Positions 1,896-11,887 of a DNA stretch of 11,934 nt are shown piece by piece. Every line of letters starts with the position of its first letter. Position 1 is the first letter of the stretch. A program made the position numbers and the translations under genes. The notes beneath the pieces are model-generated. The model did not search any database, had not been told where the DNA came from, and saw only the letters and a program-made list of their open reading frames with translations. This DNA is from Candidatus Desantisbacteria bacterium CG1_02_38_46 (GTDB lineage Bacteria; Desantisbacteria; UBA1551; UBA1559): the NCBI GenBank assembly GCA_001871015.1, contig MNUO01000110.1:1-11934 (forward strand), in the 5' to 3' direction.

Positions 1896-3302
1896 TTGTC
1901 TGATTACGATGCAATAATTATTGGTGGTGGGCCAGGAGGATACACCTGCGCAATCAGAATCACGCAACTTGGAGGAAAAGCCTGTCTGATTGAAGAGGAT
2001 AAGCTGGGAGGAACCTGTCTTAATCGGGGGTGTATTCCCACAAAAGCCCTTCTTGCAAGTGCTGGTTTGTTTTTTAGAATTAAGAAAGCAAAGGATTTCG
2101 GAGTAAATGTAGATAATTATTCAGCAGATTTTTTAGCAATGATGCAGAGAAAGGATAAAGTCGTTACCCGCCTGCGGATGGGTGTGGAATATTTACTGAA
2201 GAATAATGGTGTTGAAATAATCAGAGGCAGGGGAAAAATTGTGGGGGAAAAAGCTGTTGAAGTTATAAATAACGAACAACGAGTAACGATAAACGGTAAA
2301 AATCTAATTATTGCAACGGGTTCAAAACCGATGAAAATTCCAGGGATAGATTGCGATGGCATCAACATAGTAACCAGCGACGAAATACTTACACTTACAA
2401 ATTTGCCCGCAAGTCTTTTGATTATTGGTGGAGGAGTAATCGGTTGTGAATTCGCCTGCATCTTTTCAGAGATTGGAACAAAGGTGACCATTGTGGAGAT
2501 GTTGCCACAGATTCTGCCCACAGAAGATGAAGAGATTGCAAAGACCTTAAGGGGGATTCTGGAAAAACGTGGAATAAAAATATATACTGAAACGAAAGTA
2601 GAAAAAGCAGACAGTCGGGTACCCACTGAAGGTGGGTGCAATAAAGTATCCAGTAAATTATCAAACGGAGAAACACTGCAAACTGAAAAAGTACTGGTAT
2701 GCACAGGAAGGCTACCAAACAGTGAAGGGCTGGGATTAGAGGAAATAGGTGTCAGGTTAGAAAAGAATAGAGTGGTGGTTGATGACAAGATGCGCACAAA
2801 TATCGATGGGGTGCATGCTATAGGAGATGTGGTCGGAGGCATTTTGCTTGCCCATGTGGCAATGTCCGAGGCAGTTTGTGCGGCTGAAAACATAATGGGC
2901 GAAGATGCTAAGATGGACTATACTGCAGTGCCGGGTTGTATTTTCACTTTTCCTGAGATTGGTTCAGTTGGTTTTACCCAGAAGAAAGCCATGGAATCAG
3001 GTATGGAAATTGTTATTGGTAAATTTCCATTTACAGCAAGCGGAAAGGCACTGGCTACAGGTGAGGCAGAAGGATTTGTTAAAGTAATTTCAGATAAATC
3101 TGGAAAAGTCCTCGGAGTTCATATAATCGGTCCTGAGGCGACAAATCTCATTGCAGAGGCGACACTGTGTATCCGCAATAGCATTGGCATAGACGGAATA
3201 GCAAGAACAATTCATGCACATCCTACATTGCCGGAGGCAGTTCTTGAGGCGACACTCGATGTAAAAGGCGAAGCAATCCACATACCCAAAAAGAAATTGT
3301 AG
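1896..3302 (+). CDS. lpdA: Dihydrolipoamide dehydrogenase (E3)
   Basis: FAD flavoprotein that re-oxidises dihydrolipoyl groups on E2 or glycine-cleavage H proteins and passes electrons to NAD+. From the TTG start the product is 468 residues, normal for the family. It starts SDYDAIIIGGGPGGY (FAD dinucleotide fold, glycines 10-15). The redox disulfide is C41/C46 in LGGTCLNRGCIPTK. The NAD-binding GGGVIG lies at 178-183, the second FAD motif is HAIGDVVGG near 307-315, and the C-terminal dimer domain carries the catalytic HAHPTLPE (H442, E447). All key residues are present, so the enzyme looks intact. An in-frame ATG at 1884 would add four residues, but a strong Shine-Dalgarno overlaps it. Two oddities: a palindrome within codons at 2619-2639 sits in a loop slightly longer than usual, and the TAG stop lies inside the outer stem of a repeat element. 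lipB and lipA lie about 1 kb downstream. Confidence 0.95.
   Translation: MSDYDAIIIGGGPGGYTCAIRITQLGGKACLIEEDKLGGTCLNRGCIPTKALLASAGLFFRIKKAKDFGVNVDNYSADFLAMMQRKDKVVTRLRMGVEYLLKNNGVEIIRGRGKIVGEKAVEVINNEQRVTINGKNLIIATGSKPMKIPGIDCDGINIVTSDEILTLTNLPASLLIIGGGVIGCEFACIFSEIGTKVTIVEMLPQILPTEDEEIAKTLRGILEKRGIKIYTETKVEKADSRVPTEGGCNKVSSKLSNGETLQTEKVLVCTGRLPNSEGLGLEEIGVRLEKNRVVVDDKMRTNIDGVHAIGDVVGGILLAHVAMSEAVCAAENIMGEDAKMDYTAVPGCIFTFPEIGSVGFTQKKAMESGMEIVIGKFPFTASGKALATGEAEGFVKVISDKSGKVLGVHIIGPEATNLIAEATLCIRNSIGIDGIARTIHAHPTLPEAVLEATLDVKGEAIHIPKKKL
2619..2639. repeat. Palindrome inside lpd coding sequence
   Basis: GTACCCAC (2619-2626), loop TGAAG, GTGGGTGC (2632-2639): an 8-bp hairpin with one G-T pair. 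It encodes part of ADSRVPTEGGCNKVSS, a segment between two strands that is about six residues longer than the usual spacing I know for Lpd. The TGAA-type loop is also seen in the type B element at 7040-7043. It may be a remnant of a palindromic element inserted in frame, but no outer stem or second arm is visible. Confidence 0.35.
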
Positions 3303-3350
3303 TGGCAGACCTTGGTCTGCAATTTAGGCGAGTAAACTCGCCCACTACAA
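3297..3350. repeat. Type A two-armed palindromic element, full copy (A1)
   Basis: A 54-nt element. The outer stem is TTGTAGTG (3297-3304) paired with CACTACAA (3343-3350), a perfect 8 bp. Arm 1 is GCAGAC, loop CTTG, GTCTGC (3305-3320). A spacer AATTTA (3321-3326) leads to arm 2, GGCGAG, loop TAAA, CTCGCC (3327-3342). It would fold as a three-way junction in either DNA or RNA. The lpd stop codon TAG (3300-3302) is part of the outer stem. A related 54-nt copy with compensatory changes lies inside thrC at 8612-8665, and a truncated copy follows directly. Confidence 0.85.
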
Positions 3351-3372
3351 GTAGTGGCAGACCTTGGTCTGC
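3351..3372. repeat. Type A element, 5' half only (A2)
   Basis: The 22 bases at 3351-3372 repeat 3299-3320 exactly at a 52-base offset: the GTAGTG half of the outer stem plus the whole of arm 1. Arm 2 and the closing strand are missing; in their place is the mscS ribosome binding site. The 3' strand of A1 (CACTAC, 3343-3348) could alternatively pair with the GTAGTG of this copy. Confidence 0.8.
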
Positions 3373-7002: not shown

Positions 7003-7055
7003 GTAACTCAGGACTTTAGTCCTGATATTGTATCAAACCTGAAGGTTTGAGTTAC
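7003..7055. repeat. Type B two-armed palindromic element, full copy (B1)
   Basis: The outer stem is GTAACTC (7003-7009) with GAGTTAC (7049-7055), a perfect 7 bp. Arm 1 is AGGAC, loop TTTA, GTCCT (7010-7023). A spacer (7024-7034) can form a small GATA/TATC hairpin. Arm 2 is AAACC, loop TGAA, GGTTT (7035-7048). The plan is the same as type A at 3297-3350, with entirely different stem sequences. It begins two bases after the aminotransferase stop. Confidence 0.85.
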
Positions 7056-7065
7056 AATTCTTTTT

Positions 7066-7114
7066 GTAACTCAGGACTTTAGTCCTGATATCAGAACTAA
7101 AGTTCTTAAGTTGC
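7066..7114. repeat. Type B element, second copy with a different arm 2 (B2)
   Basis: Positions 7066-7091 repeat 7003-7028 exactly: the GTAACTC stem strand, arm 1 (7073-7086) and the start of the spacer. Arm 2 is different: AGAAC, loop TAAA, GTTCT (7093-7106). The closing strand AAGTTGC (7108-7114) pairs with GTAACTC over six positions, including one T-G, with one mismatch. The element ends nine bases before the hom ATG and takes up the place where a ribosome binding site would normally lie. Confidence 0.8.
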
Positions 7115-7122
7115 TCCTCAAT

Positions 7123-8436
7123 ATGAATAAAAAAATTATTAATTTAGGTATTGTTGGTTTTGGTACTGTCGGTATGGGTGTTGTGAAGATTTTGCAGCAT
7201 TCACCTGCGATGTTCACTGAGAAAACAGGCTTACGACCCATTATCAGAAAGATAGTTGACATAGATAAAAAGCGTCACCGAGATGTTAGGATCCCTGCCT
7301 GGATTTTAAGCAAGAATGTGCAGGATGTACTTGACGATTCTGAAATCAATGTGGTGATTGAACTTACAGGGAATGAATCTGCAGCAAGAAAGATTTTACT
7401 GGATGCACTTTCAAGGAAAAAGAATGTTATTACAGCTAATAAATCAGCTCTCGCTAAATATTGGGATGAGATTTTTGCCGCGGCGAGAAAAAACGGCGTT
7501 GAAGTTTACTATGAATCAGCTGTGTGTGCTGGGTTACCAATTATTCAGGTTCTCCAACAGGGTCTTGCTGCAAATCGTATTTCCAGGATTTTTGGAATAG
7601 TAAATGGTACGACAAATTATATACTTACGAGGATGGACAGAGATGATTATAGTTTTAAGGATGCCCTCGTGGAGGCTCAGAAAAAAGGATTTGCTGAGTC
7701 AAATCCTACCCTGGATATCAATGGTTATGATAGTCTTCACAAGATTGTCATACTTTCTTCACTTGCTTTCGGAAAGAGGGTGAAGATTGAAGATGTATAT
7801 GTGGAAGGCATAGATAAAATAGAAGTCAGCGATATAAAGAATGGTGCTGAACTTGGTTATGTTCTCAAATTGCTTGCCATTGCAAAAGAAGAAGTGAATA
7901 AAGAAATTGAAGTCAGGGTTCACCCAACATTTTTACCAAAGGGTCATGTGCTATCATCTGTAGAAGAAGAGTATAACGCCGTATATATTGTGGGCGACCT
8001 TACAGGCCCGATAGTCCTGTATGGACGAGGTGCAGGACAGATGTCCGCGGCAAGCGCTGTAATAGGAGACCTGATTTATTTGGGGCGCAGATTTGTGTCC
8101 GGGATGAGCGGGAGGGTGGACAATATATGGGAGGAGAAACACTCTGATTTAAAGATTAAGGGGATAAACGAGATCAGGGCTGAGTACTATCTTCGTTTTT
8201 CTGTGGTCGATTCACCAGGAGTGCTTGCAAAAATTTCGAACATACTTGGTATGAATGATATCAGCATTGCACAGGTGATTCAAAAAAGCAGGTTCAGTGG
8301 AAGTGTAGTTCCTGTAGTGATGATGACACATGAGGCAGTTGAAAAAAATGTGCAGCGCGCACTAAAATTAATTGACCATCTGGATATTGTTAAGGCAAAA
8401 ACAGTCCTTATCAGGGTAATAGGTGTCAGGTCTTGA
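7123..8436 (+). CDS. hom: Homoserine dehydrogenase with C-terminal ACT domain
   Basis: Reduces aspartate semialdehyde to homoserine, the branch point to threonine and methionine. From ATG 7123 the product is 437 residues. The NAD(P) fold starts NLGIVGFGTVGMGVV (7-21), ANKSALA lies at 105-111, the catalytic domain has ESAVCAGLPII (131-141) and GIVNGTTNYILTRM (158-171), and AESNPTLDINGYDSLHK (191-207) holds the substrate-binding Asp and Lys residues. The last ~85 residues (YYLRFSVVDSPGVLAKISNI onward) are an ACT domain, usually the site of threonine feedback inhibition. A TTG at 7111 in frame is less likely because it overlaps repeat B2. No Shine-Dalgarno is visible before either start. The last codons and the TGA stop lie within a 15-bp inverted repeat. 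thrC follows; homoserine kinase does not. Confidence 0.95.
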   Translation: MNKKIINLGIVGFGTVGMGVVKILQHSPAMFTEKTGLRPIIRKIVDIDKKRHRDVRIPAWILSKNVQDVLDDSEINVVIELTGNESAARKILLDALSRKKNVITANKSALAKYWDEIFAAARKNGVEVYYESAVCAGLPIIQVLQQGLAANRISRIFGIVNGTTNYILTRMDRDDYSFKDALVEAQKKGFAESNPTLDINGYDSLHKIVILSSLAFGKRVKIEDVYVEGIDKIEVSDIKNGAELGYVLKLLAIAKEEVNKEIEVRVHPTFLPKGHVLSSVEEEYNAVYIVGDLTGPIVLYGRGAGQMSAASAVIGDLIYLGRRFVSGMSGRVDNIWEEKHSDLKIKGINEIRAEYYLRFSVVDSPGVLAKISNILGMNDISIAQVIQKSRFSGSVVPVVMMTHEAVEKNVQRALKLIDHLDIVKAKTVLIRVIGVRS

Positions 8437-8465
8437 CAAATGACAAATGACAAGACCTGACACCT
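8421..8465. repeat. REP-like 15-bp inverted repeat at the end of hom
   Basis: AGGTGTCAGGTCTTG (8421-8435) and CAAGACCTGACACCT (8451-8465) are perfect reverse complements, 15 bp. They are separated by 15 bases made of two copies of ACAAATG plus an A. The left arm includes the last codons and most of the stop codon of hom. There is no T tract, so it is not a classical terminator. A third copy of the 14-base core stands at 9714-9727. It resembles REP palindromes mobilised by REP-associated tyrosine transposases, but no transposase is in the window. Confidence 0.8.
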
Positions 8466-8486: not shown

Positions 8487-9629
8487 ATGCGTTGGAAAGG
8501 GGTGATTGAAAATTATTGGAAATATTTACCAGTAAACAAGAAAACGCCAGTAGTTACTTTACTGGAAGGAAATACCCCTCTCATTGAGGCAAAAAACATT
8601 TCCAAATATCTTTGTAGTGGCAGAGTTTACTCTGCAAATAGGTCGAGCAATCTCGACCACCACAATTTTAAAATCTATCTTAAATACGAGGGTCTTAATC
8701 CAACTGGTTCATTCAAGGACCGCGGAATGACTTTAGCAATCTCTAAGGCAAAGGAAGAAGGTTTTAAGGCGGTCATCTGCGCTTCAACTGGTAATACATC
8801 TGCTTCTGCAGCTGCTTATGCAGCGCGTGCTGGATTGAAATGCATAGTTCTGATACCAAAGGGTTCTACAGCGCTGGGAAAACTTTCGCAGGCACTCATC
8901 CATGGCGCACAGGTTATTGCAGTAAATGGAAATTTTGACCAGGCATTGGAAGTTGTCAGAGAAATTACAGAGAAATATCCTGTTGCACTCGTAAATTCTA
9001 TTAACCCATATAGAATTGAGGGACAGAAGACTGCTTCTTTTGAAATATGTGATGTTCTTGGAAGAGCGCCTGATTTTCAAGTGATGCCCGTCGGAAATGC
9101 TGGCAATATCACCGCATACTGGAAAGGGTATAAAGAATATAAAAAAGTAGGAAAAATCAAGAATTTGCCAGGGATGTGCGGATTTCAGGCAAGCGGTGCT
9201 GCACCGATTGTAAAAGGGCATCCAATAAAGAATCCCAGGACTGTTGCTACTGCTATTAAAATTGGAAATCCGGCGAGTTGGAAATTTGCCAAACAAGCAA
9301 GAGATGAATCTGGCGGTCTGATTGATACTGTAACTGATGCAGAAATTATCCGCGCCTATAAATTGCTTGCAACTCTTGAAGGAGTTTTTGCTGAGCCGGC
9401 TTCAGCCGCTTCTATCGCCGGCCTCATCAAGCTGTGTAAAAAAGGATATTTTGCCATCGCTCGCCACGACGACAGGGAAGGGTGTATCAAATCATCCAAT
9501 TGTCTAATTGTGGTCTGCATTCTTACCGGCCATGGTCTCAAAGACCCGGATAGAGCAATCGCTTCAGTGAAAGCACCGATTGTAGTTGAACCTGAAATTG
9601 ATAAGGTAATGAAAGTGATTAAGATATAA
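8487..9629 (+). CDS. thrC: Threonine synthase carrying an in-frame 18-codon insertion
   Basis: A PLP enzyme of fold type II that converts O-phosphohomoserine to threonine. The product is 380 residues, longer than the ~350 usual for this form. It starts with [17 protein letters not shown] (26-42), then [20 protein letters not shown] with the Schiff-base lysine K77, [19 protein letters not shown] (98-116), the PLP phosphate loop [14 protein letters not shown] (202-215), EPASAAS (303-309) and [15 protein letters not shown] (344-358). Residues 42-60 are encoded by a type A palindromic element and replace what is normally a very short link. A second extra stretch of about 10 residues lies at 323-342 ([17 protein letters not shown]). 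All catalytic motifs remain, so I expect function to be kept. Start ATG 8487 follows AGAGAGG (8472-8478). tRNA-Val begins three bases after the stop codon. Confidence 0.93.
8612..8665. repeat. Type A palindromic element in frame inside thrC (A3)
   Basis: The element is 54 nt, the same length as A1 at 3297-3350, and aligns to it without gaps (42 of 54 identical by hand count). The outer stem is TTGTAGTG (8612-8619) with CACCACAA (8658-8665), one A-C mismatch. Arm 1 is GCAGAG, loop TTTA, CTCTGC (8620-8635). Arm 2 is GTCGAG, loop CAAT, CTCGAC (8642-8657). Relative to A1, both members of one base pair have changed in each arm: C-G to G-C in arm 1 (8625 with 8630) and G-C to T-A in arm 2 (8643 with 8656). 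In this frame A1 would contain a TAG, which is absent here. Confidence 0.88.
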
Positions 9630-9713: not shown

Positions 9714-9727
9714 GGTGTCAGGTCTTG
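9714..9727 (+). repeat. Half copy of the hom/thrC REP-like repeat
   Basis: GGTGTCAGGTCTTG, identical to bases 8422-8435 at the end of hom. The second arm is absent. The copy is instead bracketed by CACATC (9705-9710) and GATGTG (9729-9734), which are reverse complements, so the unit could sit in the loop of a small hairpin starting at the 3' end of tRNA-Val. The remaining bases up to the next tRNA (9735-9778) show no clear promoter or terminator. Confidence 0.7.
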
Positions 9728-9778
9728 CGATGTGCTTTAAGATTCTTCCTGGTTTATTTGAGCAAGTTATCAAAATGC

Positions 9779-10951: not shown

Positions 10952-11770
10952 ATGAATGAAAAGGGAAAACTTCTAATTAGAGAATTACAAAAAAAATATA
11001 CGAAAGCAGAAAAAATTATTGCTGCGTCAGATAAAAAATACTTTAATTTTCTTTCGGTTTCAGATAAAATCCGTCTTGCTAATCAGATTGCGGGTATGTG
11101 TTTTGAACTTGCAAGGCATAGTGGAAGAGAGTCAATTAAAAAATTACCAGGAAATGATAAAATGGATGAGGAAAAAGCAGAAGAAGAGTTTGCCACCGGT
11201 ACGCCATTAATCGTTCTTTGTGCTGTAGGAGCACTCATGAATGAAGCAAAAATAGATTATATGATTATTGGTGGAGTTGCAACCGCAGCTTGGGGGATGC
11301 CAAGACCAACTTATGATGTGGACATTATGATGACATTTCCAAGAAAAAAAATTACACAATTATTACTACTCGCAGCTAAACATGGTTTTTTGTATCAGGA
11401 AGAAGAAATAGAAAGATTGCTTAAAAGCGATATGATAAGATTGCGCTATAAGATACCAGAAAAGGATTTTTCTATTCCCATTGACTGTATTTTTGCTAGT
11501 GTAGAATACCAACAACAGGCTCTCCAGCGCAAACAGAAGAAAAAAATAGATCAACATTGGATCTGGTTTGCTAGCCCTGAAGATGTAGCTATTTTAAAAC
11601 TTATTTCTTTTCGTGGAAGAGACCAATTAGACATTGAAAGTGTTCTCATTCAGCAGGGAGAGAAATTTGATTTAAACTATGTAAAAAAATGGGCGAAAAA
11701 ATTTGGTTTGGGAAAAAATCTCAAACTTATCTTAAAAAAATTATCTGAAAGTAAAATGGCGTGCGGGTGA
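10952..11770 (+). CDS. AbiEii/DUF6036-like nucleotidyltransferase-fold protein
   Basis: A protein of 272 residues whose middle part has the nucleotidyltransferase core: MIIGGVATAAWGMPRPTYDV (104-123) gives the GG motif and then the D-x-D pair (D122, D124). A third acidic residue, D178, sits in IPIDCIF. After it comes the segment ASPEDVAILKLISFRGRDQL (207-226), typical of AbiEii-type and related uncharacterised transferases (S-P-E-D-L-x-x-x-K ... R-x-x-D-x-x-D). The first ~85 residues form a charged helical extension that I do not recognise. Relatives include toxins of type IV toxin-antitoxin or phage-defence pairs, but no AbiEi-like antitoxin is adjacent, so the role is open. ATG 10952 is four bases after the upstream stop; a TTG at 10892 lies inside the oxidoreductase gene. 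The last four codons (MACG plus stop) fall in the stem of a structured element. Confidence 0.75.
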   Translation: MNEKGKLLIRELQKKYTKAEKIIAASDKKYFNFLSVSDKIRLANQIAGMCFELARHSGRESIKKLPGNDKMDEEKAEEEFATGTPLIVLCAVGALMNEAKIDYMIIGGVATAAWGMPRPTYDVDIMMTFPRKKITQLLLLAAKHGFLYQEEEIERLLKSDMIRLRYKIPEKDFSIPIDCIFASVEYQQQALQRKQKKKIDQHWIWFASPEDVAILKLISFRGRDQLDIESVLIQQGEKFDLNYVKKWAKKFGLGKNLKLILKKLSESKMACG

Positions 11771-11849
11771 CTGCGTAAAAACATAGGGAGGAGAAATCCT
11801 ACCCTCTTGCGCTTAGAAGCGCGTTAAAAATTTTGCAGCCCCGCACGCC
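11758..11849 (+). other. 92-nt structured element with outer stem and two hairpins
   Basis: GGCGTGCGGG (11758-11767) pairs perfectly with CCCGCACGCC (11840-11849). Inside this, CTGC (11771-11774) pairs with GCAG (11835-11838), and AAAA (11777-11780) with TTTT (11831-11834). The core holds two hairpins. The first is AGGGAGGA, a GAAA (GNRA) tetraloop, then TCCT, a bulged A, CCCT (11785-11805). The second is GCGCT, loop TAGA, AGCGC (11809-11822). Its GC-rich arms stand out from the A-rich gene it overlaps. It could be a small structured RNA, a mobile-element end or a larger relative of the two-armed palindromes. No known RNA family is recognised. Confidence 0.6.
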
Positions 11850-11887
11850 GTGCTCAATAATAAAATTGGGGCAGTAGAGCGAATAAA

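Follow-up and report, generated by a model that had tools for sequence, protein, structure and literature searches.

The threonine synthase gene (thrC) of Candidatus Desantisbacteria bacterium CG1_02_38_46 carries, in frame, a 54-nt element that consists of two inverted GTAG-tagged REP units, i.e. a REPIN. The insert would be translated as a hydrophilic surface loop of the enzyme, a loop that structure modelling renders as disordered. We regard it as very probable that the REPIN landed in thrC as a mobile element and is translated as a tolerated loop, with the surviving copies filtered by selection. Judging from the genome sequence, some twenty further housekeeping genes likewise carry the element in frame, and there too selfish DNA apparently gives rise to additional protein loops. 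The gene lies in a stretch of 11,934 nt on contig C87 (here called the window, meaning the whole stretch of DNA analysed) together with genes for glutamine synthetase, lpd, an MscS-type channel, lipoate metabolism, an aminotransferase and hom, where ORFs that were not scanned are named by reading of their sequences.

In each REP unit GTAGTGG overlaps a stem of 7 bp that is closed by a 2-nt loop, and GTAG lies at the foot of the hairpin. In the REPIN of thrC (8612-8665, + strand) two such units stand head-to-head. The left unit GTAGTGGCAGAGTTTACTCTGC (8614-8635, + strand) is the exact family consensus (0 mismatches) and is read C-S-G-R-V-Y-S-A, and the right unit GTGGTGGTCGAGATTGCTCGAC (8642-8663, - strand) has 1 mismatch, which turns GTAG into GTGG. 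A sequence-only reading of the window had equated this element with the one in the intergenic gap between lpd and the MscS-type channel gene (3297-3350, + strand), and a repeat search with a direct count agrees, since the two align ungapped with 42/54 identical bases (78%). The intergenic REPIN belongs to the same GTAGTGG family and is immediately followed by a solo unit, GTAGTGGCAGACCTTGGTCTGC (3351-3372, + strand). The further claim that both copies share the same outer stem and two arms stood for the two-unit build but not for the whole stem: in thrC the outer stem is flawed at one place (GTAG..CCAC for GTAG..CTAC), and on the + strand it forms only in part. Both 54-nt copies fold beyond their shuffled versions (z -4.2 to -6.1 as RNA, -4.6 to -6.1 as DNA). 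Position 8612 is the third position of codon 42 and 8665 the second position of codon 60, so the assignment of ThrC residues 42-60 to the element, with a net gain of 18 codons, was correct. The stop predicted from the intergenic copy, which in this frame reads CSGRPWSAI*ASKLAHY with TAG in the spacer, is indeed absent from thrC.

The family is large. The doublet pattern GTAGTGG-N28..44-CCACTAC has 28 exact matches in the 1.73-Mb genome against 0 for a reversed control, and the half-unit pattern with up to 2 mismatches has about 261 matches genome-wide, part of them individually listed, against 1 for the control. Within 278 kb of stretches picked around element matches we found 232 units in 96 clusters over dozens of contigs, in the form of solo units, head-to-head doublets (spacer mostly 5-7 nt), units set back-to-back at a distance of 1-2 nt, and tandem arrays. 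In this sample 22 of the 96 clusters (about 23%) lie in genes, the counts of intragenic sites being lower bounds, and the remainder lie mostly outside. The family is also present in genomes that are not related to this one, with 77 matches in G087, 12 in G114 and 9 in G116. None of the 16 sampled clusters of G087 and G114 falls inside a long ORF, compared with 22/96 here (p=0.04), and the load on coding sequence is therefore not a property of the family alone. A literature search on Desantisbacteria repeats found nothing relevant.

By its sequence, the host gene is an intact threonine synthase gene. It runs from 8487 to 9629 (+ strand), is open through 380 codons and retains the PLP motif GSFKDRG (K77). 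Since the length of the element is a multiple of three and the used frame has no stops, thrC stays open and the element would be translated. Alignment of 40 ThrC proteins upheld the earlier statement that the catalytic motifs survive the insert, as every invariant residue including K77 is kept. The top Foldseek matches are threonine synthases and the fold agrees with solved structures. Modelling had been proposed as a check for a surface loop; in the AlphaFold2 model (pTM 0.87) the insert appears as a disordered, low-confidence coil between the helix at 36-43 and the strand at 60-67, with pLDDT under 50 at 49-53. That the thrC frame is a pseudogene or an assembly artefact, and the element untranslated, is very improbable. 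The sequence does come from a metagenome-assembled genome (MAG) of 133 contigs that is 88% complete; against this, however, stand the intact frame and invariant residues, a half-element at the same site in an independent assembly, the presence of a single ThrC ortholog in the genome (the second match is a distant PLP enzyme), and the same pattern in about 20 other genes.

How the loop came to be there is best judged from orthologs. Relatives had been expected to carry a few residues at this position, and 37 of the 40 ThrC proteins are indeed without any insert, having few or no additional residues there, but the nearest relative carries half of the element, read in the same frame. A short loop is the norm in this alignment, and distant orthologs sharing the 18 residues were not found. 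The half-unit, TGTAGTGGCAGAGCTTGCTCTGC, is the single one in thrC of Desantisbacteria CG1_02_49_89 (G001, the sister genome below; another family of the same order, ThrC 85% identical in protein sequence), and it has an identical left boundary, orientation and frame. The third exception is an Omnitrophota MAG (L070), whose insert at the same loop is based on a different, unrelated inverted repeat (18 nt, perfectly complementary); from these three exceptions it follows that the loop is a permissive site hit more than once. ThrC loops do differ in length by a few residues, but the idea that the 18 residues merely reflect normal variation in loop length and resemble the repeat by chance can practically be dismissed, given the rarity of inserts among the orthologs and a 22-nt left unit that exactly matches a family of 261 copies against 1 in the control. 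More serious, though still unlikely, is the proposal that the insert is an old, retained part of ThrC, inherited from an ancestor in common with CG1_02_49_89 and possibly useful through a loop function or mRNA-hairpin regulation. The agreement of the two half-units in placement speaks for it, as does the paired T-A to C-G change that separates their stems. Yet each unit matches the commonest loop variant of its own genome, as separate insertion or gene conversion would predict, there is no conservation of the length or of the second half, and in other genes different repeats hit the same loops independently. Because the left boundary is identical, shared descent with gain or loss of one half is inseparable from two independent insertions; we lean toward shared descent for the unit common to both genomes, convergent insertion also being possible.

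Other loops of ThrC vary as well. A second length-variable loop near the C terminus (9430-9510 of the window) contains a 15-residue sequence here, GCGTCGTGCGTCGTGCG repeats in the sister genome and other inserts in many Omnitrophota. Two Elusimicrobia proteins (L095, L105) have other repeat-like inserts, KSKLKVKSKRLKL and SEFRVQSSEKKLRTTNYELRT, at another loop, in columns 226-276 of alignment A1, hinting, as far as sequence comparison goes, that in-frame repeat insertion may be common in such MAGs.

A search for the 54-nt pattern inside other ORFs, which the earlier reading had advised, gave at least 22 in-frame sites in 21 ORFs, thrC included, accepted among units in long ORFs after Pfam scans and reading of the sequences. 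Besides ThrC, these encode aspartate-semialdehyde dehydrogenase (ASD), a ThiL-like protein (two sites), a TsaD/TsaB-family protein, TopA, DprA, LeuC, a GHMP kinase (seven 24-nt tandem units), IspG, a radical-SAM/DUF2344 protein, an ABC ATPase, an NADH dehydrogenase-type subunit, HypD, PcnB, AroA, TrmD, TrpE, DHODH, a GIY-YIG protein, a TraF-like signal peptide and one unassigned protein of 730 aa. In most of the 21 ORFs, Pfam domains were matched around the element, e.g. in ASD, ThiL, TopA, LeuC, IspG and HypD, and likewise in AroA, TrmD, TrpE and the ABC ATPase. The weakest five are DHODH and PcnB, in which nothing clearly exceeds the Pfam profile, and three ORFs whose family support is weak or lacking (GIY-YIG, TraF-like and 730-aa). 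The element is absent from the relatives aligned for all six genes examined (ASD, LeuC, IspG, TrpE, TrmD with three relatives and HypD with one), but in the sister genome the same loops often hold a different insert. The IspD, FTCD, GH20 and LeuD ORFs were not counted, as the element precedes the likely start codon, nor was a UPF0164 match (GVVADLGLLYK), which resembles native sequence.

The copies in genes are biased in frame and in spacing. Forward units in genes use the CSGRVYSA frame at 18 sites and the VVAEFTL frame at 2 (p=4e-4); one of the latter falls in a putative signal peptide, for which a hydrophobic peptide is suitable. Within genes all 14/14 tandem spacings are divisible by three, versus 23/61 outside (p=1e-5), tandem neighbours within one array not being independent events in such statistics. 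A second, stop-rich palindrome family, GTAACTCAGGACTTTAGTCCTGA..., occurs in the window between the aminotransferase and hom genes (7003-7056 and 7066-7106), and its doublet has stops in all six frames. In the 278 kb sampled, 0/40 of its copies lie in long ORFs versus 50/235 for the GTAGTGG family (p=2e-4), the stop-rich copies having been taken from DNA selected around GTAGTGG matches. The frame and spacing biases may be read as signs of selection on reading frame.

Several further features of the window deserve mention in their own right. At 8422-8464 a hairpin, GGTGTCAGGTCTTG...CAAGACCTGACACC (z -8.4), provides the final codons and the TGA stop of hom, and a related sequence is found at 9714-9734. 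A 100-nt region of strong folding (11755-11855, z -6.6) lies where the last complete ORF ends and has no Rfam match. In lpd, the extra residues SRVPTEGGCN lie over a small hairpin (2612-2660); the case for an insert is weak there, because these are only about 4 residues more than a plant homolog has and the sequence has a single copy.

Mobilisation of GTAG REPs has been attributed to RAYT transposases (PMC3733652, PMC3116915). A RAYT gene flanked by GTAGTGG units was not found in this 88%-complete MAG, whose two RAYT-like genes bear other terminal repeats; a Y1 fragment on contig C53 was considered and set aside, since its sequence looks like an IS200-type TnpA instead. In the sister genome a RAYT gene is flanked by inverted GTAGCTGCAGGGCTTGCCCTGC units (L301), in G087 RAYT is flanked by GTAG REP units of the GTAGTGGCAGGTC type (L255/L288), the build of these flanking REPs being that of the present family, and in G116 the exact 22-mer of the GTAGTGG family lies inside a RAYT gene (L259). 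These associations make RAYT-type mobilisation of the GTAGTGG element plausible. A RAYT gene of G087 (L255, 1342-1998) has in-frame GTAG REP units of its own, near the N terminus and after the HxH motif. No target-site duplication was identified for the element, and in a test for MITE character inverted ends were present, the search for matching IS ends having covered the surroundings of Y1 transposase genes.

Elements of this kind are known: GTAG REPs, REPINs and REPs inside genes have all been described before. GTAG REPs (Di Nocera et al. 2013, PMC3733652) likewise have a GTAG end, a short stem and loop, predominantly head-to-head dimers and clusters. Copies inside ORFs, which are most numerous in Opitutus terrae, encode 20-30 (up to 82) residues, including in repair and tRNA genes, and since that survey counts intragenic units as REPs, an intragenic location is no bar to the class. 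The present case differs in that the host phylum lies outside that survey, many of the intragenic copies sit in biosynthetic enzymes, and a strong frame preference and multiple-of-three tandem arrays have been measured. REPINs (Bertels and Rainey 2011, PMC3116915) share the inverted REP doublet that forms one hairpin and acts as a replicating unit. Here, however, the spacer is only 5-7 nt, each arm is a complete hairpin and many units are solo or tandem, and there are intragenic copies, whereas those of P. fluorescens were studied in extragenic space (PMC3116915). The parallel drawn earlier with the Rickettsia palindromic elements (RPEs) is apt for the mode of insertion, palindromic repeats in frame in many unrelated housekeeping genes (PMC10969869), but not for the family, which is here a GTAG-type REP doublet. 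RPEs are about 150 bp long (PMC10969869) as against 54 nt, and the REP-like RPE-4 and RPE-6 are CGTC-tagged (PMC3733652) rather than GTAG-tagged. The case is notable for its unusually heavy load on core enzymes, for the biases in frame and spacing measured here, and for the fact that three palindromic inserts have used a single ThrC loop.

As we picture the events behind insertion and tolerance, the element would be a small mobile one that arrived in thrC, most likely in the form of single-stranded hairpin DNA, through a RAYT-type Y1 transposase. The resulting 18-residue hydrophilic loop would be tolerated by ThrC, presumably as a neutral addition to the enzyme. Purifying selection would remove insertions that break genes, which would explain why the intragenic copies that survive keep the reading frame, occupy permissive loops and mostly encode the hydrophilic peptide. 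A bolder reading, which we consider doubtful, is that the GTAGTGG REP has evolved to be translation-compatible (stop-free in several frames and coding for a soluble, flexible peptide in the favoured one), colonises coding sequence and supplies loops, the ThrC loop having been retained across two families of one order.

In this uncultured lineage, a repeat whose name marks it as extragenic decorates a considerable number of core enzymes. The copies form a natural collection of tolerated loop insertions and a measure of mobile DNA becoming protein, and they are a warning for the annotation and structure prediction of such genomes. The common site in ThrC offers a way to test whether such loops are inherited and serve a purpose or merely survive where insertion is tolerated.
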